A DNA stretch of 64,000 nucleotides from Olsenella profusa DSM 13989 (GTDB lineage Bacteria > Actinomycetota > Coriobacteriia > Coriobacteriales > Atopobiaceae), in assembly GCF_030811115.1 (NCBI RefSeq), contig NZ_JAUSQK010000001.1, positions 434,001 through 498,000 on the forward strand. Direction: 5' to 3'. The position numbers were made by a program, and so were the translations under genes. Position 1 is the stretch's first letter, and every line of letters starts with the position of its first letter. The notes below the pieces were generated by a model. It saw nothing but the letters and a program-made list of their open reading frames with translations, was not told where the DNA came from and did no database searches. Shown here in pieces: positions 39,058-52,896 of the stretch.

Positions 39058-39318
39058 ATGCAGTCACGCGTCGCCGTCATTGGCATCATCGTCGAGGATC
39101 CCGCTTCCGTGGAGGCGCTCAACGAGCTGCTCCACGAGTTTGCCGACATCATCATCGGTCGCATGGGCATCCCCTACCACAGGCGCGACATCAGCGTCAT
39201 CAGCATCGCCGTCGATGCCCCGCAGGACAGGACCTCCGCACTCACGGGTCGCATCGGCGCGCTTGACGGCGTCAGCTGCAGGACCGCCTTCTCCAACCTG
39301 TTCTTCGATGCGGAGTAG
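39058..39318 (+). CDS. TM1266-type iron-only hydrogenase system putative regulator
   Basis: An 86-residue ACT-like protein. MQSRVAVIGIIVEDP followed by LNELLHEFADIIIGRMGIPY (about 24-43) and ISVISIAVDAP matches the small protein repeatedly found beside [FeFe]-hydrogenase maturation genes and named after Thermotoga TM1266; its regulatory role is inferred, not proven. ATG 39058 follows AGGGGGAG. It converges with hydE, with 8 bases between the stops. This association supports reading the neighbouring minus-strand operon as part of a hydrogenase-type cofactor system. Confidence 0.88.
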   Translation: MQSRVAVIGIIVEDPASVEALNELLHEFADIIIGRMGIPYHRRDISVISIAVDAPQDRTSALTGRIGALDGVSCRTAFSNLFFDAE

Positions 39319-39326
39319 GCCATCGG

Positions 39327-40520
39327 TCAGGTCGTGCGCAGCAGCTCCTCAACGTGCTGCCCGAGCGCATCCGGTGCCGTTGCGCACCCCCTGCATCGCG
39401 CCTGGCCGTCCCCCGGGCCACCATCGCCGCCATCGAGGCTGCGCACGAGGTCGCGCTCGGTGGCGGCATCGCGCCACGAGGGATGGTCGCCCCGCTTCTC
39501 CACCACGCGGTAGCCCACGCGCGCGACGCGCCGCTCCATGCAGCGGCGACACTCGGCCGCCTCGTCACCCGTACAGATCTTCCCGTCGTACAGCAGGTAC
39601 TTGCTGCGCACGTCCCGCGGTGAGAGGTTGGGCATCACCACGTTGGCCCCGGCGAGCAGCCCCCGCTCGCGCCCCAGGGGGTCGATGGTGCCCAGCGCCG
39701 TCGTCGCAGGCAGCAGCACCTCGGGCAGCATCAGGCGGATGACGCCCAACAGGTGCAGCGTGTCCTCGATCGGCCCAGCGGCGTGGTTCCCAAAGGGCGT
39801 GTCCCTATGCGGGATGAAGGGGCCGATACCCACCATGTCCGCCCGGAACTCCTGCATCCAGAGCAGGTCCTCGACGACATGACCCCAGGTCTGATAGGGC
39901 GAGCCGACCATGATGCCGCAGCCCACCTGATAGCCGATGTCCTTGAGGTCATACAGGCAGCGCTTGCGATTGGCCAGGGAGAGCTCCACGGGATGGAGCT
40001 TGCCGTAGTGCCAGGGGTTGGACGTCTCCTGGCGGAGCAGATAGCGTTCGGCTCCCGCCGCGAAGTAGCGCTCGTAGCTCGCGCGCGGTCTCTCGCCTAT
40101 CGAGAGCGTGACCGCACAGTCGGGATGGGCGGCGCGCATCCTGGAGATCAGGTCGCACAGGGTTTCGTCGGCGTAGGCGGGATCCTCGCCACCCTGCAGC
40201 ACGAACGTCCGAAAGCCCAGGCAGTGTCCCTCGTCGCAGCATGCCAGGATCTGTTCCTCGGTAAGGCGGTAGCGCTCTGCATGGGCATTGCTGCGGCGCA
40301 GCCCGCAGTAGAGGCAGTCGTTCCTGCAGTGGCTCGTGAACTCGATGAGGCCGCGCAGGTACACCTCCTTGCCATAGTGCTCCTCGCGCACCGCGCGCGC
40401 GGCGGCATAGAGCTGCCGCTCCTCTGCCGGCGTGATGGTCGCAAGAAGCGCCGCCAGCTCGGCCGCCGCCAGCGTACGCGTCTCGCGCAGCTCGTGTATG
40501 CGACGCTCGTTCCCCGTCAT
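39327..40520 (-). CDS. hydE: [FeFe]-hydrogenase H-cluster radical SAM maturase HydE
   Basis: In known systems HydE converts the HydG-made Fe(CO)2(CN)-cysteine complex towards the two-iron subcluster. The 397 residues have the radical SAM triad C65, C69, C72 (CRNDCLYC), FVLQGGEDPAYAD (about 104-116) and the HydE-type ETSNPWHYGKLHP and MVGSPYQTWGH. The C-terminus carries extra pairs CRRC and CRGC. ATG 40520 overlaps the hydF stop as ATGA. It is the last gene of the operon. No HydG, the usual source of its substrate, is encoded in the window. Confidence 0.95.
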   Translation of the reverse strand: MTGNERRIHELRETRTLAAAELAALLATITPAEERQLYAAARAVREEHYGKEVYLRGLIEFTSHCRNDCLYCGLRRSNAHAERYRLTEEQILACCDEGHCLGFRTFVLQGGEDPAYADETLCDLISRMRAAHPDCAVTLSIGERPRASYERYFAAGAERYLLRQETSNPWHYGKLHPVELSLANRKRCLYDLKDIGYQVGCGIMVGSPYQTWGHVVEDLLWMQEFRADMVGIGPFIPHRDTPFGNHAAGPIEDTLHLLGVIRLMLPEVLLPATTALGTIDPLGRERGLLAGANVVMPNLSPRDVRSKYLLYDGKICTGDEAAECRRCMERRVARVGYRVVEKRGDHPSWRDAATERDLVRSLDGGDGGPGDGQARCRGCATAPDALGQHVEELLRTT

Positions 40521-41854
40521 CGGACGCTCGCATCCCCCTGAGCCGACACCTCTCGTGCCGCGGCACCCGTCACGAGCGCGGTCACGTTGGCTGGAGCACG
40601 GCCGTCGCCGAAGTCATCGGAGACGCCGCGGTCGTGGTCGCGCGGCTCTGCGTCCAGGGTCGCGACCAAGTCGGGAAAGAGGCTCAGGCTGCGCCGCAGG
40701 ATGCCCTTCATGTGGGCGATGGCGATGCCGTAGTTGGTCATGGGAACGCCCTGCCCGGCGCATTGGGTCGCGCGATGCGCCATCTCGCGGGCGTTGAGCA
40801 TGCAGCCCCCGCAGTGGATGACCAGCCGATAGGGCGTCACATCATCGGGAAAGCCCCTCCCCGACGTGGTCTCGAGCGCAAGGTCGCATCCCGTGTGCTC
40901 GGCCAGCCAGTGCGGGAGCTTGACCGTGCCGATGTCGTCGCACTGCCTGTGGTGCGTGCACCCCTCCGAGACGAGCACGCGATCGCCATCCGCCAGGCCG
41001 TCGAGCGCACGCACACCCTCCACCGCACCGGCCAGCAGGCCCTTGTGACGGGCCATGAGTATGGAGAACGACGTCAGCCGCACGTCCTGGGGCACGACGC
41101 GCGAGACGGGACCAAAGACCTGGCTGTCCGTGACGACGAGCGTGGGCTTGCGTGGGGCCATCCGCTCGAGCGTCCTGCCCAGGCGCACCTCCTGCACCAC
41201 GAGGCACTCGGCACCGGCGTCCAGCACGTCGCGCACCGCCATCTGCTCGGGAAGGATGAGCCGGCCCCTGGGGGCCGCCTTGTCGATGGGAACGACCAGC
41301 ACCACGAGATCATCCGGGCCGACGAGGTCGAGAAGCATCGGCAGCACGTCGTGGCCCGCCGTCCCGATGGCGGCGATGCGCTCCTTGAGGGCGCCGATGC
41401 CCTCCCCCGTGAGGCCGCTCACGTACACGTCGTGCGCTCCCGCCTCGGGGAGGGCACCGAGCAGGTCACGCTTGTTGTAGGCCACGACATAGGGCACGTC
41501 GTGCGAGCGGAAGAGACCGATGAGCTGCTCGTCGCATGCGCCAAGGCCCTGCGTGGCATCCACCACGAGCACGGCGAGGTCGGTCTGGTCGAGCACACGA
41601 CGCGTTGCGTGCACCCGCCTCTGTCCGAGCGTCCCCACGTCGTCGAAGCCGGGCGTGTCGATGACCACGACGGGACCCAGCGGCAGGAGCTCCATGGACT
41701 TGCGCACCGGGTCGGTCGTGGTGCCCAGCGTATCCGACACGACCGAGAGGCCCTGTCCCGTGATGGCATTGACGACGCAGGACTTGCCTGCGTTCCTGCG
41801 GCCGAAGAACCCGATGTGCACCCGCTCAGCCGAGGGCGTGTCGCTCATGCCCAT
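40517..41854 (-). CDS. hydF: [FeFe]-hydrogenase maturation GTPase/scaffold HydF
   Basis: Scaffold that carries the two-iron precursor and delivers it to the apo-hydrogenase. The 445 residues have an N-terminal GTPase domain: P-loop GRRNAGKS at 18-25, DTPGFDD, and YNKRDLL for guanine binding. The C-terminal cluster-binding domain has CTHH and then HCGGCM, the C-x-H / H-C-x2-C pattern of HydF. ATG 41854 follows AGGGGGAG at 5 bases, and the ORF overlaps the upstream gene by 29 bases. The long variable tail (about 415-445) is of no known function. Confidence 0.95.
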   Translation of the reverse strand: MGMSDTPSAERVHIGFFGRRNAGKSCVVNAITGQGLSVVSDTLGTTTDPVRKSMELLPLGPVVVIDTPGFDDVGTLGQRRVHATRRVLDQTDLAVLVVDATQGLGACDEQLIGLFRSHDVPYVVAYNKRDLLGALPEAGAHDVYVSGLTGEGIGALKERIAAIGTAGHDVLPMLLDLVGPDDLVVLVVPIDKAAPRGRLILPEQMAVRDVLDAGAECLVVQEVRLGRTLERMAPRKPTLVVTDSQVFGPVSRVVPQDVRLTSFSILMARHKGLLAGAVEGVRALDGLADGDRVLVSEGCTHHRQCDDIGTVKLPHWLAEHTGCDLALETTSGRGFPDDVTPYRLVIHCGGCMLNAREMAHRATQCAGQGVPMTNYGIAIAHMKGILRRSLSLFPDLVATLDAEPRDHDRGVSDDFGDGRAPANVTALVTGAAAREVSAQGDASVR

Positions 41855-43085
41855 GAGATCTCCCCCTCCTCGAAGCCATCTCGAGATCGACAAGCGTCGC
41901 ACTTCCTACCAGACGCGATCCTCCCAGCAGCTCCAACGGGTCGAGCCTTGCGACGTCCGGAATCTCGTGCAACCACTGCCGACCTGAGAGCGCGAGGTGC
42001 GGAAGGTCGCAGAACCTGGCGCCTTGGGGGCACACCGCCGAGAGGAACGGGTCCCCCACCATCAGCGTCGCCTGCGCCAGGACCTGCCGCAGGCGCTCCT
42101 CTCCAGGGGCACAGACGTCCCACAGACTTGGCTCCAGGAGGTCATGCGTGTCCTCGAGCGGGGTGACCAGGCGCGTGGGAACCCGCACGAGCTCGAGGCC
42201 CGCGGCGATGGATCCCATGGACACCGGCTCGCCGATGAGGGGGACGCAATCCTCCACCCTGCGCTCCCCGACGGTTGCGCGCCGCACGTCCTGGTAGGCG
42301 AGCCTGCTTCTCCCATCCCGCAGCGCGTCGCGAAGTGCGCGCTCAAGGCGGCCGGCAAAGGTCCCCACGGGAAAGCCCACCACGTAGGGAATGCCAAGGC
42401 GCCTCTCGAGCACACGAGCGGCACGCATGCCGGTTGCGGAGACCACGAGGTTCGCGTCCGCACGTGCCGCCGCCAGGATGGTGTCAAGCGTGTCTCCCAT
42501 GGCCCAGCACGACTGCAGCCGAAAGCCGGCCCCCTCGAGCCAACCCACCAGCGACTCCCTCGTTCCCTCGGCGGCAAAGTCGAGCGGCGTCATGCCCAGC
42601 ACGTTCACGCTGGGACGGACATCGGCATCGGCACCGAGGGGCGCCATCACCTGCCCCGCGACAAGCTGGAGGGCAAGCCCGGCTCCGCGCACGTAGTCGT
42701 GCATACCGTTGGTTGGCACGCAACGGGTGGGAACGCCGCTCCTGGCCTCGACGAGGCGTGCGATGGCAGCGAGGTCCGTCCCGATCTGGAAGGGTATGGG
42801 GGAACTCACCAGCACGATGAAGCGCGGGTGAGTCTGATCCGCGGCCTCCACCACATCGCGAACCAGCCTCTCGTCGTTTCCCAGGGCCGCGTCGCGCTCG
42901 GTGAGGCCGCTGATGAAGATGAGACTGTCCTGGTCGTACCAGCGAATCTCGTCATGCGTGTTGTAGGTTGAGTTGCAGCCCGAGGGGTCGTGAATCACGA
43001 CCATGCCGCCCAGCTCGAAGAGGGCCGAGCACACGCCCGAAATGTCACCGGTGTATACGGGAAGTGCCTGGTACGCCTGCCTCAT
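41826..43085 (-). CDS. Nitrogenase component 1-like protein (stand-alone, second)
   Basis: A 419-residue protein of the nitrogenase alpha/beta superfamily, of unknown function. It has C19 and then HDPSGCNSTYNTHDE (C37), which corresponds to the first P-cluster Cys of NifD/NifK. At the position of the second is FISGLTERDAALGNDERLV without Cys, and the third region reads VSSPIPFQIGTD, again without Cys. Clearly not a standard nitrogenase subunit; it could bind a single [4Fe-4S] cluster shared with a partner. The start ATG 43085 overlaps the previous stop as ATGA. It probably pairs with the next protein. Confidence 0.88.
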   Translation of the reverse strand: MRQAYQALPVYTGDISGVCSALFELGGMVVIHDPSGCNSTYNTHDEIRWYDQDSLIFISGLTERDAALGNDERLVRDVVEAADQTHPRFIVLVSSPIPFQIGTDLAAIARLVEARSGVPTRCVPTNGMHDYVRGAGLALQLVAGQVMAPLGADADVRPSVNVLGMTPLDFAAEGTRESLVGWLEGAGFRLQSCWAMGDTLDTILAAARADANLVVSATGMRAARVLERRLGIPYVVGFPVGTFAGRLERALRDALRDGRSRLAYQDVRRATVGERRVEDCVPLIGEPVSMGSIAAGLELVRVPTRLVTPLEDTHDLLEPSLWDVCAPGEERLRQVLAQATLMVGDPFLSAVCPQGARFCDLPHLALSGRQWLHEIPDVARLDPLELLGGSRLVGSATLVDLEMASRRGRSHGHERHALG

Positions 43086-44482
43086 GCACACGCACCTCCC
43101 GCCGCACGAGACACGCTTGGCACCTGGCAGCAGCAGGGCATGCCAAGTCCCTTGCGCGGGACGAGCCCCCTCGTGTCCTTCCGCTCCGCCCATGCCTCGC
43201 GCATAAGGCGCACGAGACCGAGGATGGCCGAGTAGCCCCACATGCCATCCGTCTCTATGACATTCACGAAGTGCGTGGTCCCACAGAACCACGCCGCCTT
43301 GGGTCCAACGGCCAGCCAGCTGTCACCGCCATCGCGCGACTCCTGGCGCAGGGTGGGGTGGATGGTGCTCCACAGCTCGAGGTCCGGGGCGCACGCCCGC
43401 AGCCATTCCAGGGTGTCACGCTCCTCCCCGCTCACGGTATCAACGTACACGCGGCGCACGTTTATGCCACGACCGAGCAGGAGGCGGGCGAGTTCCAAGG
43501 GATGGTTGATGGCAACATAGTCTATGGCGACCGGCGTCCCCGAGAGCTCCTCCGCGAGCGCGCCCAGGGCCACGTCGCAGGAGGTGCGCAGGTCCGCCGT
43601 GCCGGGTGCCGGGCAGCCAAGCGCGTCCGCCAGGATGACAAGCCCCTCGTCGATGCTGTCATAGAGAAGCGCGGGCGGAAGATAGAGCCACCGCCTTCCC
43701 AAGCGATCGGCCGTCTTCTCGAGCCCCCATGCCCCAAAGAACGAGCGTGTGAGCAAGAGCGCACTTGCACCCAGCGACAGGTACTCGTCGAAGCTGCCAA
43801 CATCGTGGAGCTGGAGCACGCGCCACCCGGCCCGCCGGACCAGGCGCACGATGTCCGAGTCATCCGGAAGGCGCAGGTCGTCCGAGACGATGCCAAGGAG
43901 CCGCTTGTCCATGGGAAGCTCCTGGAGCGCGTCAAGCATGGCCTTGCGCTCCTTCTGCTCGGGCGTGATGCCCGTCTTCTGCATGATCGGATCCATCCAG
44001 CAGCGCATGAAGAAGATGTCGGGGAAGCGTCTCTCCAGCTCGCGGTACACATAACGGACGTCGCAGCCCATGGAGTGGTGCAGGCACACCAGGAAGATCA
44101 TGACCGCGCGCGGGCGGTAGGGCAGACGCCTGATGACGTCCGAGACACCCTCGATGGTCACGGACTCCAGGTTGTCGCACAAGAGGTCCCTCTCCTCCAG
44201 GACGACGCCAGAGAAGCGGTCAGACATCCCCATCTCCGCGGCCGTGAGCACGACCCCGCGCAGGCAGTTGTCGGCGCAGACGTATATCTGATGGCACTCG
44301 GGCACGAGCATGCCCGTGTGCACGATGTTCCAGTTCTCGTGCACGGGCGCGTTGAACTCCAGGACGTTGGGAATGGGGCGCGGGTACGCCGCATCCGCCG
44401 CGCGCACGAAGGCCGCGTACCCATCAGCACGGGCCACCTGCGCGGCCCCCTCGTCCCCCTGGGGCATGACGCGCGTCAGCAT
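43082..44482 (-). CDS. Nitrogenase component 1-like protein (stand-alone, first)
   Basis: A 466-residue member of the nitrogenase component 1 superfamily, unknown function. Cysteines cluster at C63, C69 and C73 (VPECHQIYVCADNCLRG), C102 (DLLCDNLE) and C133/C140 (LVCLHHSMGCD), so it keeps a fuller ligand set than its neighbour. The C-terminus is unusual: GMPCCCQVPSVSRAAGGACA, a Cys triplet and a further Cys. ATG 44482 lies inside the stop of the small upstream ORF (ATGCTGA). Together with the following gene it looks like a D/K- or E/N-type heterodimer acting with the NifH-like protein. Confidence 0.88.
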   Translation of the reverse strand: MLTRVMPQGDEGAAQVARADGYAAFVRAADAAYPRPIPNVLEFNAPVHENWNIVHTGMLVPECHQIYVCADNCLRGVVLTAAEMGMSDRFSGVVLEERDLLCDNLESVTIEGVSDVIRRLPYRPRAVMIFLVCLHHSMGCDVRYVYRELERRFPDIFFMRCWMDPIMQKTGITPEQKERKAMLDALQELPMDKRLLGIVSDDLRLPDDSDIVRLVRRAGWRVLQLHDVGSFDEYLSLGASALLLTRSFFGAWGLEKTADRLGRRWLYLPPALLYDSIDEGLVILADALGCPAPGTADLRTSCDVALGALAEELSGTPVAIDYVAINHPLELARLLLGRGINVRRVYVDTVSGEERDTLEWLRACAPDLELWSTIHPTLRQESRDGGDSWLAVGPKAAWFCGTTHFVNVIETDGMWGYSAILGLVRLMREAWAERKDTRGLVPRKGLGMPCCCQVPSVSRAAGGACA

Positions 44483-44601
44483 GGGCGCACCGCCTCCCCC
44501 GCCGCACCGGTGCACATGCCATCGGCGACGTCCATGCCACTCTCGGCGGCAAGCCTGCGGTGGACGACGTCGCCTCTGCCAAAGAGTCCCAGCCGTACCA
44601 T
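44476..44601 (-). CDS. 41-residue small ORF between hypE and the nitrogenase-like pair
   Basis: ATG 44601 has a good site (GAGGGGG, 5-6 bases upstream) and starts 14 bases after the hypE stop; its stop overlaps the next start as ATGCTGA. The product, MVRLGLFGRGDVVHRRLAAE then SGMDVADGMCTGAAGEAVRPC, is not low complexity and has two cysteines, one being the last residue. It may be a small metal- or cluster-related protein or simply a coupling ORF. No family recognised. Confidence 0.5.
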   Translation of the reverse strand: MVRLGLFGRGDVVHRRLAAESGMDVADGMCTGAAGEAVRPC

Positions 44602-44615
44602 GTCGACCCCCTCGC

Positions 44616-45620
44616 CTAGCAGATGCGCGGCAGAAGCTCGTTGCCCGGCTCGGGCAGGATGGTCTGGGTGCCAAGCTCGGTGTCCATGACCACGCGACCG
44701 GGAAGCTCGTTGGTGATGTGGCCGATGATGGTCGCACCCTCCGCGTGCGGGCACCCCCGGAGGGCCCGAACCAGGCGCTCGGCCTTGGCGGCGGGGCAGA
44801 TCATCACGAGCCGACCCTCACAGGCCAGATAGAGCGGATCGAGTCCCAGCATGCCGCAGACGCCCGCCACCCCGGGGGCGACGGGAACCGCCGCATCGTC
44901 CAGGCGCACGCCCACCCTGCTCTGGTGGGCGATCTCGTAGAGCACCGTGCCCACGCCGCCGCGGGTGGCATCGCGGATCGTGTGGATGTCGGGCACGGCG
45001 TCGAGCGCGGCCTCCACCGCGGCCGCAAGCGGCGCGCAGTCGCTCGTGACATCCGCCTCGATCCCGTACGTGTCGCGGGCCAACAGGATCGCACAGCCAT
45101 GACGGCCCACGTCGCCCGTCACGACCACGGCATCGCCTGGCTCGGCATGGGAGCCTGAGGGACGCGCTCCCGCGCGCACGAGGCCCACGCCCGTCGTGGT
45201 GATGAACACGCCGTCCACCTGGCCCTTGCCGGCGACCTTGGTGTCCCCCGCCACCACGGCGACGCCCGCCTCGCGGGCCACCCTCCCCATGGAGGCCACG
45301 ATGCGCTCGAGGTCGGCCATGGGGAAGCCCTCCTCGATCTGGAAGGCGCAGGTGAGGTACAGGGGCTTGGCGCCCATGCACGCCACGTCGTTGGCCGTGC
45401 CGCACACGCTGAGCTCCCCCACGTCGCCACCCGGGAAGAACGCCGGGGAGACGATGAAGCCGTCCGTCGACAGGGCCAGGCGACCCGCCGGCACCGCAAG
45501 CACCGCCGCGTCATCCTCCGTAAGGTCCGGGTTGGCCAGGTGCCGCCTGAAGATGCCATCGATGAGCTCGGAGGTCTGCCTGCCACCGGCGCCCTGCGCC
45601 AAGGTCACGATGTCGTTCAC
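44616..45620 (-). CDS. hypE: Carbamoyl dehydratase HypE
   Basis: Dehydrates the thiocarboxamide on its C-terminal Cys to thiocyanate with ATP, giving the CN ligand for iron. The 334 residues end in PRIC, the exact functional C-terminus, so the enzyme should accept the carbamoyl group from HypF. The PurM-like core is visible: LAQGAGGRQT (about 7-16), STDGFIVSPAFFPGGDVG and AGDTKV. The start is GTG 45620, overlapping hypD as GTGA. In standard systems the product goes to HypCD and a [NiFe] hydrogenase; none is in the window. Confidence 0.97.
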   Translation of the reverse strand: MNDIVTLAQGAGGRQTSELIDGIFRRHLANPDLTEDDAAVLAVPAGRLALSTDGFIVSPAFFPGGDVGELSVCGTANDVACMGAKPLYLTCAFQIEEGFPMADLERIVASMGRVAREAGVAVVAGDTKVAGKGQVDGVFITTTGVGLVRAGARPSGSHAEPGDAVVVTGDVGRHGCAILLARDTYGIEADVTSDCAPLAAAVEAALDAVPDIHTIRDATRGGVGTVLYEIAHQSRVGVRLDDAAVPVAPGVAGVCGMLGLDPLYLACEGRLVMICPAAKAERLVRALRGCPHAEGATIIGHITNELPGRVVMDTELGTQTILPEPGNELLPRIC

Positions 45621-46756
45621 GAGTGACGTCCCCCCTCTGTTGGCCCTAAGGTCACGGGCCGTCTTGAAGCCGCGGGTGCCAGGCCCACGTCAAGGTCGGC
45701 CCCGTACAGGTAGAAGGCCGAGCAGGCGCCCTCGCTCGAGACCATGCAGGCGCCCACGGGATGTTCGGGCGTGCAGGCCGTGCCGAAGGCCGGGCATGCT
45801 CGTGGCGTGCATGCGCCCTGCAGCACCGCGCCGCAACGACAGGCGGGGTTCTCCCGACCATCGATGCGGGGCAGGTCGTACCTCGCGCGTGCGTCATAGC
45901 CCGCATAGGGCTCGCGCAGGCGCAGGCCCGAGCCCGCGATCGTACCGATGCCGCGCCACGTGGCGTCGCACGGCTCCATCATGCGCGCCACGAGGCGCCG
46001 TGCCGCCGGGGCCCCCTCGGGCCGCACGACGCGGGGGTAGCAGTTGACGAAGAAGGGCGCGCCCTGGGCGAACTTGGTCACGCCCACCGCCAGGGCCGTC
46101 ACGAGCTCCGTGGCCGTGAAGCCGGCGAGCACGCCGCTCACGCCCTCCGCCACGAGGTCCTCGCAGACCTTGGTGCCCGTGATGGCATGCACGTGACCGG
46201 GATAGAGGAACAGGTCGGTCGAGCCCCTCATGGCCTCGTAGGCCCCGGGCATGGTCCTGTTGGCCGTGAGCAGCGAGAAGTTGGTGAGCCCGTCGTCCGT
46301 CGCCGCGCGCACCGCAAGGCAGCTCGATGGCGCGGTGGTCTCGAAGCCCACCGAGAGGAACACGACCTGCTCGTCCGGATGGGCGGCCGCATAGGCCTCG
46401 GCGTCCTGGGGCGAGTAGACCACCCGCACCGTGGCGCCCTGCGCACGCGCCCCCGCCAGGGACAGCTCGGTCCCCGGCACGCGCACCAGGTCGCCGAAGG
46501 TACAGATGGTACAGCCGCGGTCGAGCGCAAGCATGAGGGCCTCGTCGACAAAGCCGACCGGCGTCACGCAGACCGGACAGCCCGGCCCACTGACGAGCTC
46601 GACCTGCGGTGGCAGGATGTGGCGGATGCCCTGGCGGAACAGCTCGTGCGTGTGGGTGCCGCAGACCTCCATGATGCGTACGTGGGGCCCATCGTAGCCC
46701 TCGAGCGCCTCGCGCGCCGACCGGCGCGCGCCGCATGCCGTGGCATGTCCGCCCAT
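45617..46756 (-). CDS. hypD: Hydrogenase iron-cofactor assembly protein HypD
   Basis: With HypC it holds the iron on which the Fe(CN)2CO unit is built. The 379 residues have VCGTHTHELFRQGIRHILPP (about 31-50, with the active Cys and His), SGPGCPVCVTP (about 56-66), SVGFETTAPS, and the C-terminal [4Fe-4S] cysteines (CRCGAVLQGACTPRACPAFG, then CMVSSEGACSAF). I take the ATG 46756, which overlaps the hypC stop (TGATG); a GTG one codon earlier is also possible. Confidence 0.97.
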   Translation of the reverse strand: MGGHATACGARRSAREALEGYDGPHVRIMEVCGTHTHELFRQGIRHILPPQVELVSGPGCPVCVTPVGFVDEALMLALDRGCTICTFGDLVRVPGTELSLAGARAQGATVRVVYSPQDAEAYAAAHPDEQVVFLSVGFETTAPSSCLAVRAATDDGLTNFSLLTANRTMPGAYEAMRGSTDLFLYPGHVHAITGTKVCEDLVAEGVSGVLAGFTATELVTALAVGVTKFAQGAPFFVNCYPRVVRPEGAPAARRLVARMMEPCDATWRGIGTIAGSGLRLREPYAGYDARARYDLPRIDGRENPACRCGAVLQGACTPRACPAFGTACTPEHPVGACMVSSEGACSAFYLYGADLDVGLAPAASRRPVTLGPTEGGRHS

Positions 46757-46968
46757 CACAGGTACTCCTCGACGAGGCCGTCCGCCTCGGACGCGTCATC
46801 ATCCGAGATGCGGGCGATCGCGGCGCCCGCATGCACCATCACGTACTCACCCGGCTCGAGGTCGTCCAGCAGCTGGGCCGAGACCTCGCGCCGCGCCCCC
46901 GTGGCCTCCACGAGCGCCGCCCCCTCGTCGCTCACCGCGATCACCCGCGCGGCTACCCCTACGCACAT
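46756..46968 (-). CDS. hypC: Hydrogenase maturation chaperone HypC
   Basis: Chaperone of 70 residues that binds HypD and the iron precursor through its second residue, Cys2 (MCVGVAARVIAV). The conserved His is present in PGEYVMVHAGAAIARI (about 39-54). The Pro that normally follows in MCxxxPxxV is replaced by Ala, a possible sign that its client is not an ordinary [NiFe] large subunit. ATG 46968 follows GGGAGAG and overlaps the end of hypF by 10 bases. Confidence 0.93.
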   Translation of the reverse strand: MCVGVAARVIAVSDEGAALVEATGARREVSAQLLDDLEPGEYVMVHAGAAIARISDDDASEADGLVEEYL

Positions 46969-49514
46969 GTCGTCTCTCCCTTCCTGCTCGGGGGCGCTGC
47001 GCCCCCGGGGTCGATGCCCGTCAGGGCGACGCCGTCCACGTCACCGTCCGCCACGGCCTGGGCGGCAACGACCGCCTGGCCCAGGGCGAGGCCTCCGTCA
47101 TTGGGCGGAATGAGGCCGTGCGTGAGCACGGAGAGGCCCGCCCCCATGAGTGCGCGCTTCGTGAGGCCCAGCAGGAGACGGTTCTGGTAGCAGCCGCCCG
47201 TCAGCGCCACTGCGGTGACGCCCGCCTCCCGTGCGATCGCCCGGCAGGCGGTGGCCACCATGTGCGCGAGCGCGGCATGGAAGCCGTAGGCAAGGCCCTC
47301 CACGGGCCTCCCGGCAAGGCGTCCCCCGACAAGCCACCGCACGAGCCCCTCGGTCCCGAGCACGAGGGAGGGGGCCGCTCCCGCGTGTGGTGGCATGGCC
47401 TCGACCAGACCGGTCTCCGCAAGGCCGGGGACGTCGGGCAGCGGCAGCGGGACCCCGTCCCCCGCAGCCTCCCCTGCCGCCAGGAAGGTCGCGCCCCGGC
47501 CCTCCGCCCACCGGCGTGCCGCGTACTCAAGCATGCAGGACGCCTCGCCCTCGTAGGTGGAGGAGCGACGGATGCCCAGGATGGCGCTGGCGGCATCGAA
47601 GAGCCGCCCCGCGCTCGTGGACGTGACGGCATTGATGCGCCGCTCGACCATCATGACCTGTGCGCGGGCGCTCCTCTCGTCACACAGGCCGAGGCGTGCC
47701 GCGAGCTCGAGCGTGCGCCCCACGTCGTGCGTGAGCCCCTGCAGCATCGAGACGGCCACGCGCCATCCCTCCAGCGAGGAGCGGTCGCCACCCACCTGCA
47801 CGAAGGGACGGATGCTCGCCCTGCGCTCAAAGCCATGGTAGTCGGCGAGCATGATCTCGCCGCCCCAGATGGTGCCGTCGGTGCCCAGGCCCGTGCCATC
47901 GAACGCGACGCCCACTGCGGGGCCCGTCCAGTCGTTCTCGGCCAGGCAGGAGGCGATGTGCGCGAAGTGATGCTGCACGCGCACCACGGGGACGCCCGCG
48001 GCGGCGGCGAGACGTTCGGCGATCGCCGTGGCGTTGTAGCTGGGATGCAGGTCACAGGCGATGGCCTGGGGATGTGCCTCCAGGAGCGTCTCCATGCGGC
48101 GCACGGACTCCTCGAGCGCCCGCACGGTGCGCAGGTCGCTCAGGTCACCCACATGGGCGGAGGGGTAGAAGAGGTCTCCCCTGCCGATGCAGAAGGTGTT
48201 CTTGAGCTCGCCTCCCACGGCCAGCACGCAAACGTCCTCCACACCCCGCGCGAGGCGCTGCGAGAGCACCACGGGCAGCGGCGCATAGCCGCGCGAGCGA
48301 CGGATCATGTAGGGCGCGCCCTCGAAGAGGTCCATGACCGAGTCGTCCGCACGCGTGCGGATCGGGCGGTCGTGCGACAGGATGAGGTCGGCAAGGCCCG
48401 CGAGCTCGTCCCGCGCATCCCCCTCGTCCCGGCAGATGGGTGCCCCCGAGACGTTACCGCTGGTCATGACCAGGCAGTCGGGCACCTGGACGTCGTCATC
48501 GTAGCGAAAGAGCAGGAGCTGTATCGGCGCATAGGGCAGCATGACGCCCACGCTGGGGTTGCCCGGGGCGACGCTCGGCGCGAGCAGCCCGCCCGCCCGA
48601 CGTCGCAGCAGGACGATGGGCCGCTGGTGGCCGCGCAGCACCTCCTCCTGCGCCGCCGAGAGAGTGCATTCGCGGTGGACGACCTCCTCGCTGCCCATCA
48701 TGACGGCAAGGGGCTTCCGCGGACGGCGCTTGCGCCGGCGCAGCAGGCTCACAGCCCTCTCATTGGTGGCGTCACAGCACAGGTGGAAGCCCCCGACGCC
48801 CTTGACGGCCACGATGCCGCCGGCGGCGAGCGCGCGCCGCGCCGCGCTGATGGCCGCGTGCCCGCGCTCGTCGCGCCCCAGCAGGTACTCCTCGGGACCA
48901 CAGTCGTTGCAGCAGACCGGCTGCGCGTCGTAGCGACGCGACGAGGGGTCCAGGTACTCGCGCGCGCAGTCGGGGCACAGAGGGAACGCCGCCATGCTCG
49001 TCCGCTCACGATCATAGGGCAGCGCGTCCAGAATCGTGAGACGCGGCCCACAGCACGTGCAGTTGATGAAGGGATGCAGATAGCGGCGGTTGGTGGGGTC
49101 AAAGAGCTCGCGCGCACAGTCGTCGCAGATGGCGATGTCGGGCGAGACGAAGATGGCGCCGCGCGCCCGCTCGCTCCCGACGATCGAGAAGGTGTCGTAG
49201 CGTCGGGCCGTACCGGCAGGGACGTCCCACTCGTCAACCTTGATGACATAGGCCCGCCGAGGTGGATGGCGCCGGACGAGGTCCGTGAAGCGCGCGACCC
49301 GCTCGGGGCTGCCCTGTGCGATGATCTCGACGTAGGGGCCCTTGTTGCAGACCGTGCCACACACCCCCGCCCCGACCGCGTGCCGTGCGACCGTGGGACG
49401 AAACCCCACGCCCTGCACGATGCCGAAGCAGCGCACGAGGCGCGTCACGAGCGCCTCGTGCGCTGAGGTGCCCGTCTCATGGGGCGTCGCGGCATGTGTC
49501 GTCATCGCAGCCAT
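46959..49514 (-). CDS. hypF: Carbamoyltransferase HypF
   Basis: Makes carbamoyl-adenylate from carbamoyl phosphate and ATP and loads the C-terminal Cys of HypE. The 851 residues have all domains: acylphosphatase (FGIVQGVGFRP, about 30-40), two zinc-finger halves (CDDC with CTCC; CPDC with CNDC, about 128-205), YrdC-like (VAVKGVGGFHL, about 235-245) and the Kae1-like domain (HHFAHIASCL, about 524-533, and VAFDGTGLGTDG). ATG 49514 has GAGG at 6 bases. It lies 8 bases after the nitrogenase-like fusion gene. Confidence 0.97.
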   Translation of the reverse strand: MAAMTTHAATPHETGTSAHEALVTRLVRCFGIVQGVGFRPTVARHAVGAGVCGTVCNKGPYVEIIAQGSPERVARFTDLVRRHPPRRAYVIKVDEWDVPAGTARRYDTFSIVGSERARGAIFVSPDIAICDDCARELFDPTNRRYLHPFINCTCCGPRLTILDALPYDRERTSMAAFPLCPDCAREYLDPSSRRYDAQPVCCNDCGPEEYLLGRDERGHAAISAARRALAAGGIVAVKGVGGFHLCCDATNERAVSLLRRRKRRPRKPLAVMMGSEEVVHRECTLSAAQEEVLRGHQRPIVLLRRRAGGLLAPSVAPGNPSVGVMLPYAPIQLLLFRYDDDVQVPDCLVMTSGNVSGAPICRDEGDARDELAGLADLILSHDRPIRTRADDSVMDLFEGAPYMIRRSRGYAPLPVVLSQRLARGVEDVCVLAVGGELKNTFCIGRGDLFYPSAHVGDLSDLRTVRALEESVRRMETLLEAHPQAIACDLHPSYNATAIAERLAAAAGVPVVRVQHHFAHIASCLAENDWTGPAVGVAFDGTGLGTDGTIWGGEIMLADYHGFERRASIRPFVQVGGDRSSLEGWRVAVSMLQGLTHDVGRTLELAARLGLCDERSARAQVMMVERRINAVTSTSAGRLFDAASAILGIRRSSTYEGEASCMLEYAARRWAEGRGATFLAAGEAAGDGVPLPLPDVPGLAETGLVEAMPPHAGAAPSLVLGTEGLVRWLVGGRLAGRPVEGLAYGFHAALAHMVATACRAIAREAGVTAVALTGGCYQNRLLLGLTKRALMGAGLSVLTHGLIPPNDGGLALGQAVVAAQAVADGDVDGVALTGIDPGGAAPPSRKGETTCA

Positions 49515-49522
49515 GTCGTCCT

Positions 49523-51991
49523 CTACGTCCGCACGAGATGCCCCGAGAGCGCATAGTGCGTCTCGTCAAAGAAGTCACCCGCGAAGTCGCCCACCAGCTT
49601 GCGCAGCGTGACGTCGGCGAGGATGGCGGTGGGGCGGGCCGCACGGACCGCCGCCGCGACGTCACCCTCCTCGCGCAGATGCAGGTCGCCATCGCGGCGG
49701 GCCTCGTCCGGCTGCATGAAGAAGCTCGCCACGATGACGTCCGAGGCGCCGCGAGCGAGCAGCCGCGTTCGGATGGCATGGGCCGCCACCTGCTGGTGGA
49801 CCACCAGCACGCGATGGCCCGCCCACGCGATGCGGGGGATGAGGGCATCCGCCAGCGGATAGTCGACGTCATAGGGCGTGCCGAAGCGGCGCTGGAGCCA
49901 CTGGGCCGCCTTGAGCCCCGCGGGTGACACGACGAGGTTGCGCTCGGCCGCACCGGCCGTGCGCAGCTCGTCGAGGGTGGCGCCCATGCCAAAGACGGTG
50001 ACGCGCCGCCAGCCATCAAGACGCAGCCGCCGCTCGAGGGCCGCGGCGCCATCGTGATCAGAGACGTCGAGCGGCGTGGCGCCCCAGACGCCGATGCGAC
50101 CCTCCTCCGTCACGGGTCGCTCGGGGGCTCCTTCGACAAACCTGGTGAGGAGCACCAGGTAGGCAGCCTCTGCACCTCGGTCATAGAGGTCCATGCCATT
50201 GGTCTTGAGGGCGATGGCCGGAAGGCCGCAGCGCCGTTCGGCCAGGTGACAGAGCGCGGTGAGGTCCGTTCCTATCACCGCCGGTACCGGCGTGCCCACG
50301 AGCGCAACGAAGCGGCCACCCAGCTGCCGGTGCGCCAGCTCGAGCTTCTGCACCAACAGGTCATCGCGACCAAGGATGGCATCCATGTCCCGCAGGCCCG
50401 CGCTGAAGATGGCGTCCCTCTGGGCAAACCAACGCGGCTCGTCAAAGCCGCAGATGTTGCCCACACAGCCGCCCGCATCCACCACCACCGTGATGCCGCC
50501 CATGCCATAGAGCACGGAGGCCGCCCCAGACTGGTCCGGTGCGAAGGGGGTGAGCATCCGGCGCAGGCCGCGCACGCAGTGCCGCGCGTCGAGGGGCCGC
50601 AGCGCAGGGGCGGCATCGGGGGCGGGAACGCGACGACAGGCGGCCCGTCCGCGCCGCTCCCCGGCAAGCGAGATGGCCCCATGCACGCCACGGCCCTCGT
50701 CCCCATGGGAGAGTAGGTGATCCAGCGCGCCAAAGAGGCCGCTCACCGCCGTGTAGCCAAAGGGCTGCTCGTCGCCGTCCCATGCGAGGTTTGGGCAGGC
50801 GGGGTGGTAGTAGCCAGCATCGCGGCCGATGGTGAGCGTGACGCCGGTGCCTGCAGGGTCATAGCCGATCATCGTGGGTTCGAGGTTGGAGTACACGCGC
50901 GTCTGGGGCGAGAGGTCCGCAAGATGGCGCAGGTAGACGTACTGCCCTGGCGTGACGGTGCCAAAGACCTCGCGCACGGAGCAGCCCTGGCGCACCAGGG
51001 CCAGCGCCAGCTCGAACGGGTTGGCGTTGGAGCCCTCGCCCACCGCGAAGACCTCGCGCGGATGACGCTCGCGGAAGGAGCGCAGGGCACCGCGCGCCCG
51101 CGCCTGCCAAGGCCCCTGGTCAAAGCTCACGCCCAGCGCCGTGGCCAGCGCGTCGTACTGGGCATGGATGCGATCCTCCTCGTAGAGGCGTGTGAGCTCG
51201 ATCCAGGGGATCCCCAGGCGGCGCTCGAGGTCCTGCGCGGCAGGGGCGGCCTCTGGATCGAGCACGAGGTTGAAGTTGGCCTCGGCCATGCCCTGGAAGC
51301 CGGCGAAGTCCGCTGCCGTCGAGACCTCGCGCACGTGGCGCAGGCCAGCCTGGGCGAGCAGCGCCTTGAGGTCGGACCCCTCCTCGATGGGCGCGAAGTG
51401 TCCCAGCAGGTTGCAGGCGCGCGCGTCCCTCTCGGCGGGCTCCAGCAGGGAGTAGAGCGACTGGCGCACGCTGACCATGGGCGGCCTTGTGCCCTCGCGC
51501 GTGAGGGCGTACATATAGCAGGGACGCACGGGAACGCCCGCCTCGTCCTGCGCCGCATGGCACACGCGCTCCATGTCGGTGCCGAGCAGGGCGTCCACGC
51601 AGGTGACGCAGACCATCACGACCGAGGGCACCGTGGGCAGGCTCTCGCACAGCGCCCGTACCGCCTGGGGGATGCGCCTGAGGTGACGGGACGTGATGAG
51701 GTCGGTCTCACTCATCTCGAGATAGAAGAAGCGGTTCTCATAGCCCGGTAGCTCGGAGACGGAACTGGTGTTGCGGCCGCAGCACCCCGGCGACACGACG
51801 AGCATGACCGAGCCGGGAATGGCGAGGCCCGCGCGCTTGACGCCAAAGCCCTCCGCCCCCGGAGAGTTGAAGGCCAGGGCGGCCGGCGAGCTGTAGATGA
51901 GGTGCCTGCCGGAGACGAAGTCGTCGGGGATGTCGTCGCGCCCGCGCGCCCAGAGCTCGGAGACGGTGTAGGAGACGGGGGTGACGCTCAT
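49523..51991 (-). CDS. Tandem fusion of two nitrogenase component 1-like domains (822 aa)
   Basis: One polypeptide carries two domains of the NifD/NifK superfamily. The first (about 1-440) has C70/C71 (SPGCCGRN) and C128/C131 ([13 protein letters not shown]), corresponding to first and third P-cluster-type positions. The second (about 470-822) has [13 protein letters not shown] (about 505-517) but [12 protein letters not shown], without Cys, at the third. Fusion of both subunits is unusual; NifE-NifN-like fusions are known in a few lineages. ATG 51991 overlaps the nifH-like stop as ATGA. Probably the direct electron acceptor of the NifH-like protein; substrate unknown. Confidence 0.9.
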
Positions 51992-52749
51992 GGCGTGCCC
52001 TCCCCTGCGAGGAGGCGTTGGGCAAGGTCGAGGAAGGTGCGGGAGATGGGCAGCGCGGGGTTGCCTTCGATGACCGTCCTGCCCTCGTCCTCACAGCGGT
52101 TGATGTCGTCCGATCGTGGGATGTCGCCCACGATCGCCAGGCCATGGGCATCCGCGAAGGCCTTGACCTTCCCGTACTCGTCCGGCACGTTGCGGCGGTT
52201 GAGGATGAGGCCCGCCACCCGCGCATAGCCGCGGTCCTCGAAGTTGCGCACGGCCGCGTTGATGTTGCCCGCCGCGTACAGCGCCATCCTCTCGCCACTG
52301 GTGACGATGAGGACCTTCTCGGCATAGCCCTCGCGGATGGGCGCGGCAAAGCCGCCGCACACCACGTCGCCCAGCACGTCGTAGAGTACGACGTCAGGCT
52401 CACAGGTCTCAAGGAGGCGCAGCTCCTCGAGCAGGTTGAACGTGGCGATGATGCCACGGCCGGCACACCCCAGCCCCGGCGTGGGGCCACCCGTCTCGAT
52501 GCAGAGGACGTCCCCAAAGCCCCGGCTCGAGACGTCCTCGATGGACGTGGGCTCCTCGTCCTCGTCGCGCAGATGGTCCATCACCGGGCGCAGGGGTTGG
52601 CCGCCCAGGAGGTTGATGGTGGAGTCGGCCTTGGGGTCGCAGCCGATCTGCACGACACGCCTGCCCAGGGTCGAAAGCGCGGCCGCCAGGTTGCTCGTTA
52701 TCGTGGACTTGCCGATGCCGCCCTTGCCGTAGATGGCGACCTTTAGCAT
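51988..52749 (-). CDS. NifH/BchL-like ATP-dependent iron-sulfur reductase
   Basis: A 253-residue P-loop protein of the NifH superfamily: Walker [10 protein letters not shown] at 8-16, both bridging-cluster cysteines C95 (GLGCAGRG) and C131 ([12 protein letters not shown]), and [11 protein letters not shown] (35-45). It should dimerise around one [4Fe-4S] cluster and pass electrons to a component 1-like partner with ATP hydrolysis. It is shorter than nitrogenase NifH (about 290) at the C-terminus. First large gene of the operon; the ribosome site is weak, and it overlaps a 16-codon leader ORF, so coupling is likely. Confidence 0.94.
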
Positions 52750-52793
52750 GACCCGTCACGCGCCAGGCGCGATGGACGCAGCCTCTCTTCCAT
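52743..52793 (-). CDS. Possible 16-codon leader ORF overlapping the nifH-like start
   Basis: ATG 52793 follows GGAGGGGACGGCT and encodes [16 protein letters not shown]; the TAA overlaps the nifH-like ATG as ATGCTAA. The nifH-like gene itself lacks a good ribosome site, so translation may depend on this leader. Confidence 0.4.
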
Positions 52794-52867
52794 AGCCGTC
52801 CCCTCCGGTCAGCCACCAGATCCCCATCCGGTGCCCTTCCACTCAGGTCTCGTCTCGAATGCCCATC

Positions 52868-52896
52868 ATTATGCGCCGCCAATGTGGCTGACTCAA
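52868..52896 (-). promoter_or_regulatory. Promoter of the nifH-like/hyp/hyd operon
   Basis: Minus-strand TTGAGT (52891-52896), 17-base spacer, CATAAT (52868-52873), giving a leader of about 110 bases. No clear operator is seen. The gap 52750-53016 is shared with the divergent response regulator gene, for which I see only a TACGAT -10-like box (about 52966) and no -35. Confidence 0.6.

Follow-up and report, generated by a model that had tools for sequence, protein, structure and literature searches.

A NifH-like, nitrogenase-like, HypCDEF and HydEF operon from Olsenella and other gut bacteria points to a second route to the [FeFe]-hydrogenase cofactor

We analysed a stretch of 64,000 nucleotides from Olsenella profusa DSM 13989 (contig NZ_JAUSQK010000001.1, positions 434,001 to 498,000; hereafter the window) and, within it, a minus-strand operon of ten genes that encodes a NifH-like reductase, further nitrogenase-like proteins, the maturation proteins HypF, HypC, HypD and HypE, and the [FeFe]-hydrogenase maturases HydF and HydE. 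This operon very probably takes the place of HydG, as an alternative means of maturing [FeFe]-hydrogenases. The observations behind this reading are the gene content, a fixed gene order, intact key residues, the lack of HydG and of a [NiFe]-hydrogenase, and the mutual exclusion of the operon and HydG. The replacement of HydG is well supported by gene content, and the chemistry is what we infer. The cluster of Olsenella and gut bacteria thus points to a second, undescribed route to the iron-carbonyl-cyanide cofactor of [FeFe]-hydrogenases.

The first-pass annotation of the window had already recognized this combination of families, and Pfam and NCBIfam profiles placed the ten minus-strand genes each in its reported family, with the model fold serving for the 466-residue protein. 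The features are given below.

39327-52749, minus strand: whole operon, comprising NifH-like, fused NifE/N-like, HypF, HypC, HypD, HypE, a second nitrogenase-like pair, HydF and HydE
51988..52749, minus strand: NflH, NifH-like ATP (adenosine triphosphate)-dependent reductase, 253 amino acids (PF00142, 284 bits)
49523..51991, minus strand: fused NifE/NifN-like protein (N822a plus N822b), 822 amino acids (PF00148 over two stretches, 150 bits)
46959..49514, minus strand: HypF, carbamoyltransferase, 851 amino acids (TIGR00143, 691 bits)
46756..46968, minus strand: HypC, 70 amino acids (TIGR00074, 60 bits, cut-off 48; PF01455, 73 bits)
45617..46759, minus strand: HypD, 380 amino acids (TIGR00075, 345 bits)
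44616..45620, minus strand: HypE, 334 amino acids, C-terminal end PRIC (TIGR02124, 394 bits)
43082..44482, minus strand: component 1-like subunit of the second pair, 466 amino acids (model fold; no Pfam match)
41826..43085, minus strand: partner subunit of the second pair, 419 amino acids (PF00148, 93 bits)
40517..41854, minus strand: HydF GTPase scaffold, 445 amino acids from the ATG at 41854, the open reading frame (ORF) opening at 41902 (TIGR03918, 504 bits)
39327..40520, minus strand: HydE, radical-SAM (S-adenosylmethionine) maturase, 397 amino acids (TIGR03956, 546 bits)
39058..39318, plus strand: TM1266-family [FeFe]-hydrogenase system regulator, 86 amino acids (TIGR03959, 111 bits, cut-off 60.8)

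The Hyp and Hyd genes all score above the curated NCBIfam cut-offs. Two ORFs are over-long: the start conserved in relatives is the ATG at 44482 for the 551-residue ORF and the ATG at 43085 for the 488-residue ORF, which gives proteins of 466 and 419 residues. With these corrected starts the earlier description of nearly all genes as overlapping stands in part, in that seven of the nine junctions overlap (by 4, 10, 4, 4, 4, 29 and 4 bases), but the other two are gaps of 8 bases and, between HypE and the 466-residue gene, 133 bases. The TM1266-family gene, which had been taken as a member of the operon, lies here on the plus strand, convergent with hydE, and so falls outside the transcription unit in the window.

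The host genome (2.6 Mb, single contig, completeness 99.96%) encodes two [FeFe]-hydrogenases, one of group A (TIGR02512, 464 bits) and one of group B1 (TIGR04105, 601 bits), both above cut-off. In this complete genome the sole match to the HydG model reached 55.7 bits against a cut-off of 312 and fell on hydE, and no [NiFe] large subunit (PF00374) was found. Hydrogenases that would need HydG are therefore present without it, and Hyp proteins are present without a [NiFe] client. Neither HypA nor HypB is among the operon genes (no genome-wide search for them was made). The operon had initially been expected to be mere proximity if the organism had both HydG and a [NiFe]-hydrogenase with HypA/HypB elsewhere and its relatives scattered the genes; HydG and a [NiFe] large subunit are absent from the host, and the relatives keep the operon genes together.

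Within the class Coriobacteriia we looked for the 822-residue protein, HydG, HydF (six candidates scored per genome) and HydA, each time in a set of 296 genomes chosen in the same way. HydF was present in 47 genomes and HydG in 30, every one of the latter within the HydF set, and inspection of the neighbourhoods assigned the operon to 14 (to genome G169 through locus L107). The HydF set comprised 30 genomes with HydG, 14 with the operon, none with both and three with neither, an exclusion with a Fisher p value of 2e-9, uncorrected for kinship. The three with neither (G084, G181 and G237; loci L077, L078 and L079) also lack HydE, and for that reason their HydF may be a relic. Both kinds of genome occur in two genera: G229, with HydG, belongs to the genus of the window (g1), and G287, with HydG, stands in g14 beside six operon genomes. 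Of the 14 operon genomes, 13 were tested for HydE and all 13 have it, and none of the 14 has the [NiFe] large subunit (PF00374). That HydG had been overlooked can be rejected, since the same model detects it in 30 class genomes as well as in a Thermotoga control.

The 822-residue query matched 34 class genomes, including the 14 counted as operon genomes; one of these, G244, was counted by its neighbourhood, its contig ending inside hypF. Among the other 20, HydF occurs only in G212 and G231, both with HydG. Thirteen of the 20 were inspected (L063-L075) and carry nitrogenase-like genes without adjoining Hyp or Hyd genes, that is, distinct clusters of NifH-like and component 1-like genes in 13 other genomes of the order. 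A HydF tree of 52 rows was built by a quick method; it includes 23 of the 30 HydG genomes and has some long branches and two pairs of identical rows. HydF must have changed partner four times to account for the operon label on this tree, and starred branches force at least two of these changes. There the HydF of an operon genome (G290) is sister to that of a HydG genome (G180) with a support of 100, so HydF of a single lineage is found with both systems.

The spread of the operon outside the class was assessed by scanning genome_contigs (84,980 species) with the N-terminal half of the fusion, which returned 417 stretches; our results concern the best 80 of these. By their record titles, many of the 80 loci are from Lachnospiraceae and Oscillospiraceae, among them Blautia massiliensis, B. 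luti, B. schinkii, Anaerobutyricum hallii, Eubacterium ramulus, Roseburia faecis, Coprococcus comes and Faecalicatena contorta. At the thresholds applied, the NifH-like protein and N822a stand together with HypF, HypC, HypD and HypE in 61 of the 80 loci, in an identical order and strand in all 61, so the grouping of these genes is not due to chance. The TM1266 regulator is present in 43 of the 80 loci; in Firmicutes it lies inside the operon, and in many loci there hypE and the second pair are separated by this regulator together with a further NifH-like gene. Across 49 operon-bearing genomes from outside the class (including Blautia, Coprococcus comes and Roseburia faecis), HydF was found in 48 and HydA in all 49. 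HydG scored above cut-off in none of the 49; weaker matches to its model occur in 23, and two that were checked are ThiH. A [NiFe]-type subunit was matched in eight of the 49, over the first 69-70 profile positions only, and the two inspected carry CGIC and DPCISC motifs. As a separate observation, a gene resembling aspartate ammonia-lyase adjoins hydF in four of 14 outside HydF regions (one checked); that family is linked to the bridging ligand of the H-cluster in the title of PMC11736057.

The residues on which the Hyp and Hyd families depend are intact. HypC C2 and H46 are conserved at 1.00 in 78 relatives, HypD C33, H36, C61 and C64 at 1.00 in 74, and the C-terminal C334 of HypE at 1.00 in 73. 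The same applies to HydF C315, H317, H363, C364 and C367 (ORF numbering; 1.00 in 23 relatives) and to HydE C65, C69 and C72 (1.00 in 17 relatives).

NflH likewise retains C95 and C131, which correspond in position to the 4Fe-4S ligands of NifH and are conserved at 1.00 across the window copy and 90 relatives, with a P-loop conservation above 0.95 in those 90 (some contigs were entered twice in this set and in the count of 88 fusion loci below). Its best PDB match is the nitrogenase iron protein 1cp2 (E 9e-72), and it falls below every NCBIfam equivalog cut-off (nifH, 299 versus 394 bits). The 822- and 488-residue ORFs passed PF00148 and similarly reached no NCBIfam equivalog (nifE, 92 and 49 versus 505 bits). 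As Pfam thresholds are passed and NCBIfam nif cut-offs missed, NflH and the 822- and 488-residue ORFs are, by sequence, nitrogenase-like and not nitrogenase.

NifE is the best match to the profile of N822a, the N-terminal half of the fusion. The two halves form a single ORF in 40 of 88 loci with both, and are separate genes in many relatives. The predicted structure of the fusion has a pLDDT (predicted local distance difference test score) of 86, and the model of the C-terminal half, N822b, matches DPOR BchB with a Z score of 27.7, methylthio-alkane reductase with 26 and NifN with approximately 25. In the profile comparison, made for N822a only, the NifE cofactor cysteine is replaced, the C of VCSKAM aligning with the D of VLDPEA, at what we take to be the position of NifD Cys275 and its NifE equivalent. 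Nitrogen fixation is rejected in view of this replacement and of the failure to reach any curated nif cut-off.

The 466-residue protein, listed as the 551-residue ORF, gave no Pfam or NCBIfam match. Its model (pLDDT 86) has the nitrogenase component 1 fold, with a Z score of 21.8 to VnfK and DPOR BchB, and its PDB profile matches are weak (E 4e-4 to the 9d9u/9fmg chain, methylthio-alkane reductase). The 419-residue partner matches NifE, NifD and BchB through the A4 profile, with E values down to 6e-18. For these two proteins we used alignments A3 and A4, each of 34 chosen rows (57 and 50 loci pass the threshold), which replace earlier conservation figures for the 551- and 488-residue ORFs that had mixed in N822a cross-matches. 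C74 and C134 of the 466-residue protein are invariant and C70 is conserved to at least 0.9 in A3 (numbering one higher), C39 of the 419-residue protein is invariant in A4 (numbering two higher), and the conserved cysteines of the fusion, in half numbering, are C70, C71, C128 and C131 of N822a and C69 and C74 of N822b. Such cysteines would be consistent with a bridging cluster in each nitrogenase-like pair, and the proteins look like Fe-S-cluster reductases and not N2-fixing enzymes. In seven loci (L115, L116, L118, L121, L124, L134 and L153) ORFs of 727-732 residues join a NifH-like domain, 50-52% to the NflH of the window, to a subunit of the 466-residue type, which ties the reductase to the second pair. 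Many A3 relatives of the 466-residue protein also end in a KGLGCxSC(I/F)-like tail that recalls the C-terminal cysteine of HypE; the tail is altered in the window copy.

In known maturation pathways HypF and HypE make cyanide (CN) from carbamoyl phosphate and HypC-HypD hold an Fe-CN/CO unit (CO, carbon monoxide), and HydE and HydF finish the [2Fe] unit of the H-cluster. In the operon, too, CN is probably supplied by HypF and HypE, which would convert carbamoyl phosphate into a cyanide donor; HypC-HypD would then place the cyanide on iron to give an Fe-CN(-CO) unit. Of the two nitrogenase-like complexes, one would consist of NflH and the fused NifE/N-like protein and the other of NflH (or a second NflH) and the 466/419-residue pair. 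With ATP-driven low-potential electrons, both might supply or exchange CO to yield an Fe(CO)2CN-type synthon, the product that HydG ordinarily derives from tyrosine, and HydE and HydF would build this into the [2Fe] unit of the cell's [FeFe]-hydrogenases of groups A and B. The assignment of CO formation or CN-to-CO exchange to the nitrogenase-like proteins is the weakest step, and we offer it tentatively, at rather worse than even chances. The nitrogenase-type, ATP-driven reductase pair might make CO, e.g. from CO2, or convert CN into CO on the HypC-HypD iron, and, at the same tentative level, gut bacteria of at least two phyla might build the whole H-cluster without cleaving tyrosine. The first-pass annotation had allowed for either an H-cluster-like or a new cofactor; the former is retained, but a wholly new cofactor is not needed, as the operon appears to stand in for HydG in making the ordinary H-cluster.

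Several points weigh against the replacement of HydG as set out above. The Hyp product, Fe(CN)2CO, differs from Fe(CO)2CN, so that an exchange step must be invented, and the single-chain model of the fusion aligns with fused NifEN over 665 residues at a root-mean-square deviation of 26, meaning that its two halves are positioned differently from those of NifEN. The operon falls in five genus codes of the class, and the data are phylogenetically non-independent. The HydG genomes G212 and G231 themselves carry distant nitrogenase-like clusters (E 2e-29 and 1e-26 with the 822-residue query), which in the regions inspected score 22-31% against the two large pairs and adjoin no Hyp or Hyd gene. HydA-like genes occur in 214 of the 296 class genomes, as against 47 for HydF, and eight Coriobacteriia (G015, G033, G142, G062, G273, G082, G104 and G126; L083-L091) have such genes, of group A or B, without HydE, HydF or HydG. 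In these loci the TSCCP and PCxxK motifs (L1 and L2) are intact; L3 was recognized in copies of group A, with a pattern that missed the form of group B. Since HydA-like genes can persist without maturases, the presence of HydA alone is no proof of H-cluster use in the class. Outside the class, single absences are weak because the genomes are mostly drafts and their completeness is not given. HydE was seen beside HydF in just six of 20 Firmicutes regions and was absent from all 19 HydA regions (no genome-wide survey of HydE was made there), and in two Blautia it was not found in the neighbourhoods of the operon or HydF.

The best of the alternatives, which we nevertheless consider unlikely, is that the operon builds a modified H-cluster, with another CO/CN set or bridging ligand, for particular hydrogenases. 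Hyp chemistry yields two CN per iron, unlike HydG, and the conservation of two nitrogenase-like pairs would also suit such a product, but both hydrogenases of the host belong to ordinary types, A and B, and carry the usual ligand motifs, and HydF moves between the HydG and operon contexts. Very unlikely, in our estimate, is a separate new metallocofactor for another enzyme, for which HydE and HydF were recruited while HydG was lost by coincidence. The orphan HydA-like genes mean that HydA is not diagnostic, and HydE is seen in only a minority of Firmicutes regions, both as this explanation would allow; it is opposed by the exclusion with HydG in the class, by the count of zero HydG and 49 HydA among the 49 outside genomes, and by the TM1266 regulator. 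Activation of approx. 1% with HydE and HydF in the absence of HydG, described in the available text of PMC9431212, would allow HydE and HydF to act at a low level on stray CO and CN, the Hyp and nitrogenase-like genes being unrelated, but this leaves unexplained the Hyp and nitrogenase-like block in all 14 class genomes that have HydF without HydG, outside the three lacking HydE, and is in our view barely plausible. That the genes are merely neighbours, with hypCDEF serving a [NiFe]-hydrogenase and the others separate, draws on the eight outside genomes with a [NiFe]-type subunit and the motifs in two of them, and is rejected as next to impossible by the lack of that subunit in all 14 class and 41 of the 49 outside operon genomes and by the unvarying gene order and strand of all 61 loci.

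Compared with HydE/HydF/HydG maturation, the window shares intact HydE and HydF, the TM1266 regulator and the [FeFe]-hydrogenases in its genome; it differs in that HydG, which in the known system derives all CO and CN from tyrosine according to the available text of PMC3105041, is absent, with Hyp and nitrogenase-like genes in its place. In that text, labelled tyrosine is reported to shift all five infrared bands of the hydrogenase. The operon has HypC, HypD, HypE and HypF with their key residues, as in HypA-F [NiFe] maturation, but has neither HypA/HypB nor, in the host genome, a [NiFe] large subunit. It resembles NifEN/DPOR-type reductases in the cluster and ATP motifs of NflH, the component 1 fold and the conserved cysteines, and departs from them in lacking the NifE cofactor cysteine in N822a and in combining two pairs with Hyp and Hyd maturases in a single operon. 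In the available text of Dos Santos et al. 2012 (PMC3464626), Coprococcus catus and other Firmicutes are described as having NifHEN-like proteins associated with those of hydrogenase maturation, and the authors suggest that they take part in assembling metalloclusters. With two linked NifHEN-like sets and maturation genes, that cluster is probably the same as the one described here; the text available makes no mention of HydG replacement, of the identity of the maturases or of Actinomycetota. No literature on the replacement of HydG by such an operon was found in a search that left most subscription papers outside. Among Clostridium acetogens, HydG is recognized in just three of eight, according to the part of PMC9431212 available.

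If the operon does replace HydG, an excess of NifH-like gene signal in gut data, described in the available text of PMC8597730, might be accounted for in part by such genes, unrelated to nitrogen fixation. The finding would also make hydG a poor marker for an active [FeFe]-hydrogenase and would give nitrogenase-like proteins a new job. The source of CO in anaerobic Hyp pathways is an open question, on which the operon could bear. The CO and CN of the H-cluster are taken to come from HydG, and a route without that enzyme in common gut bacteria would amount to a second way of making the cofactor.

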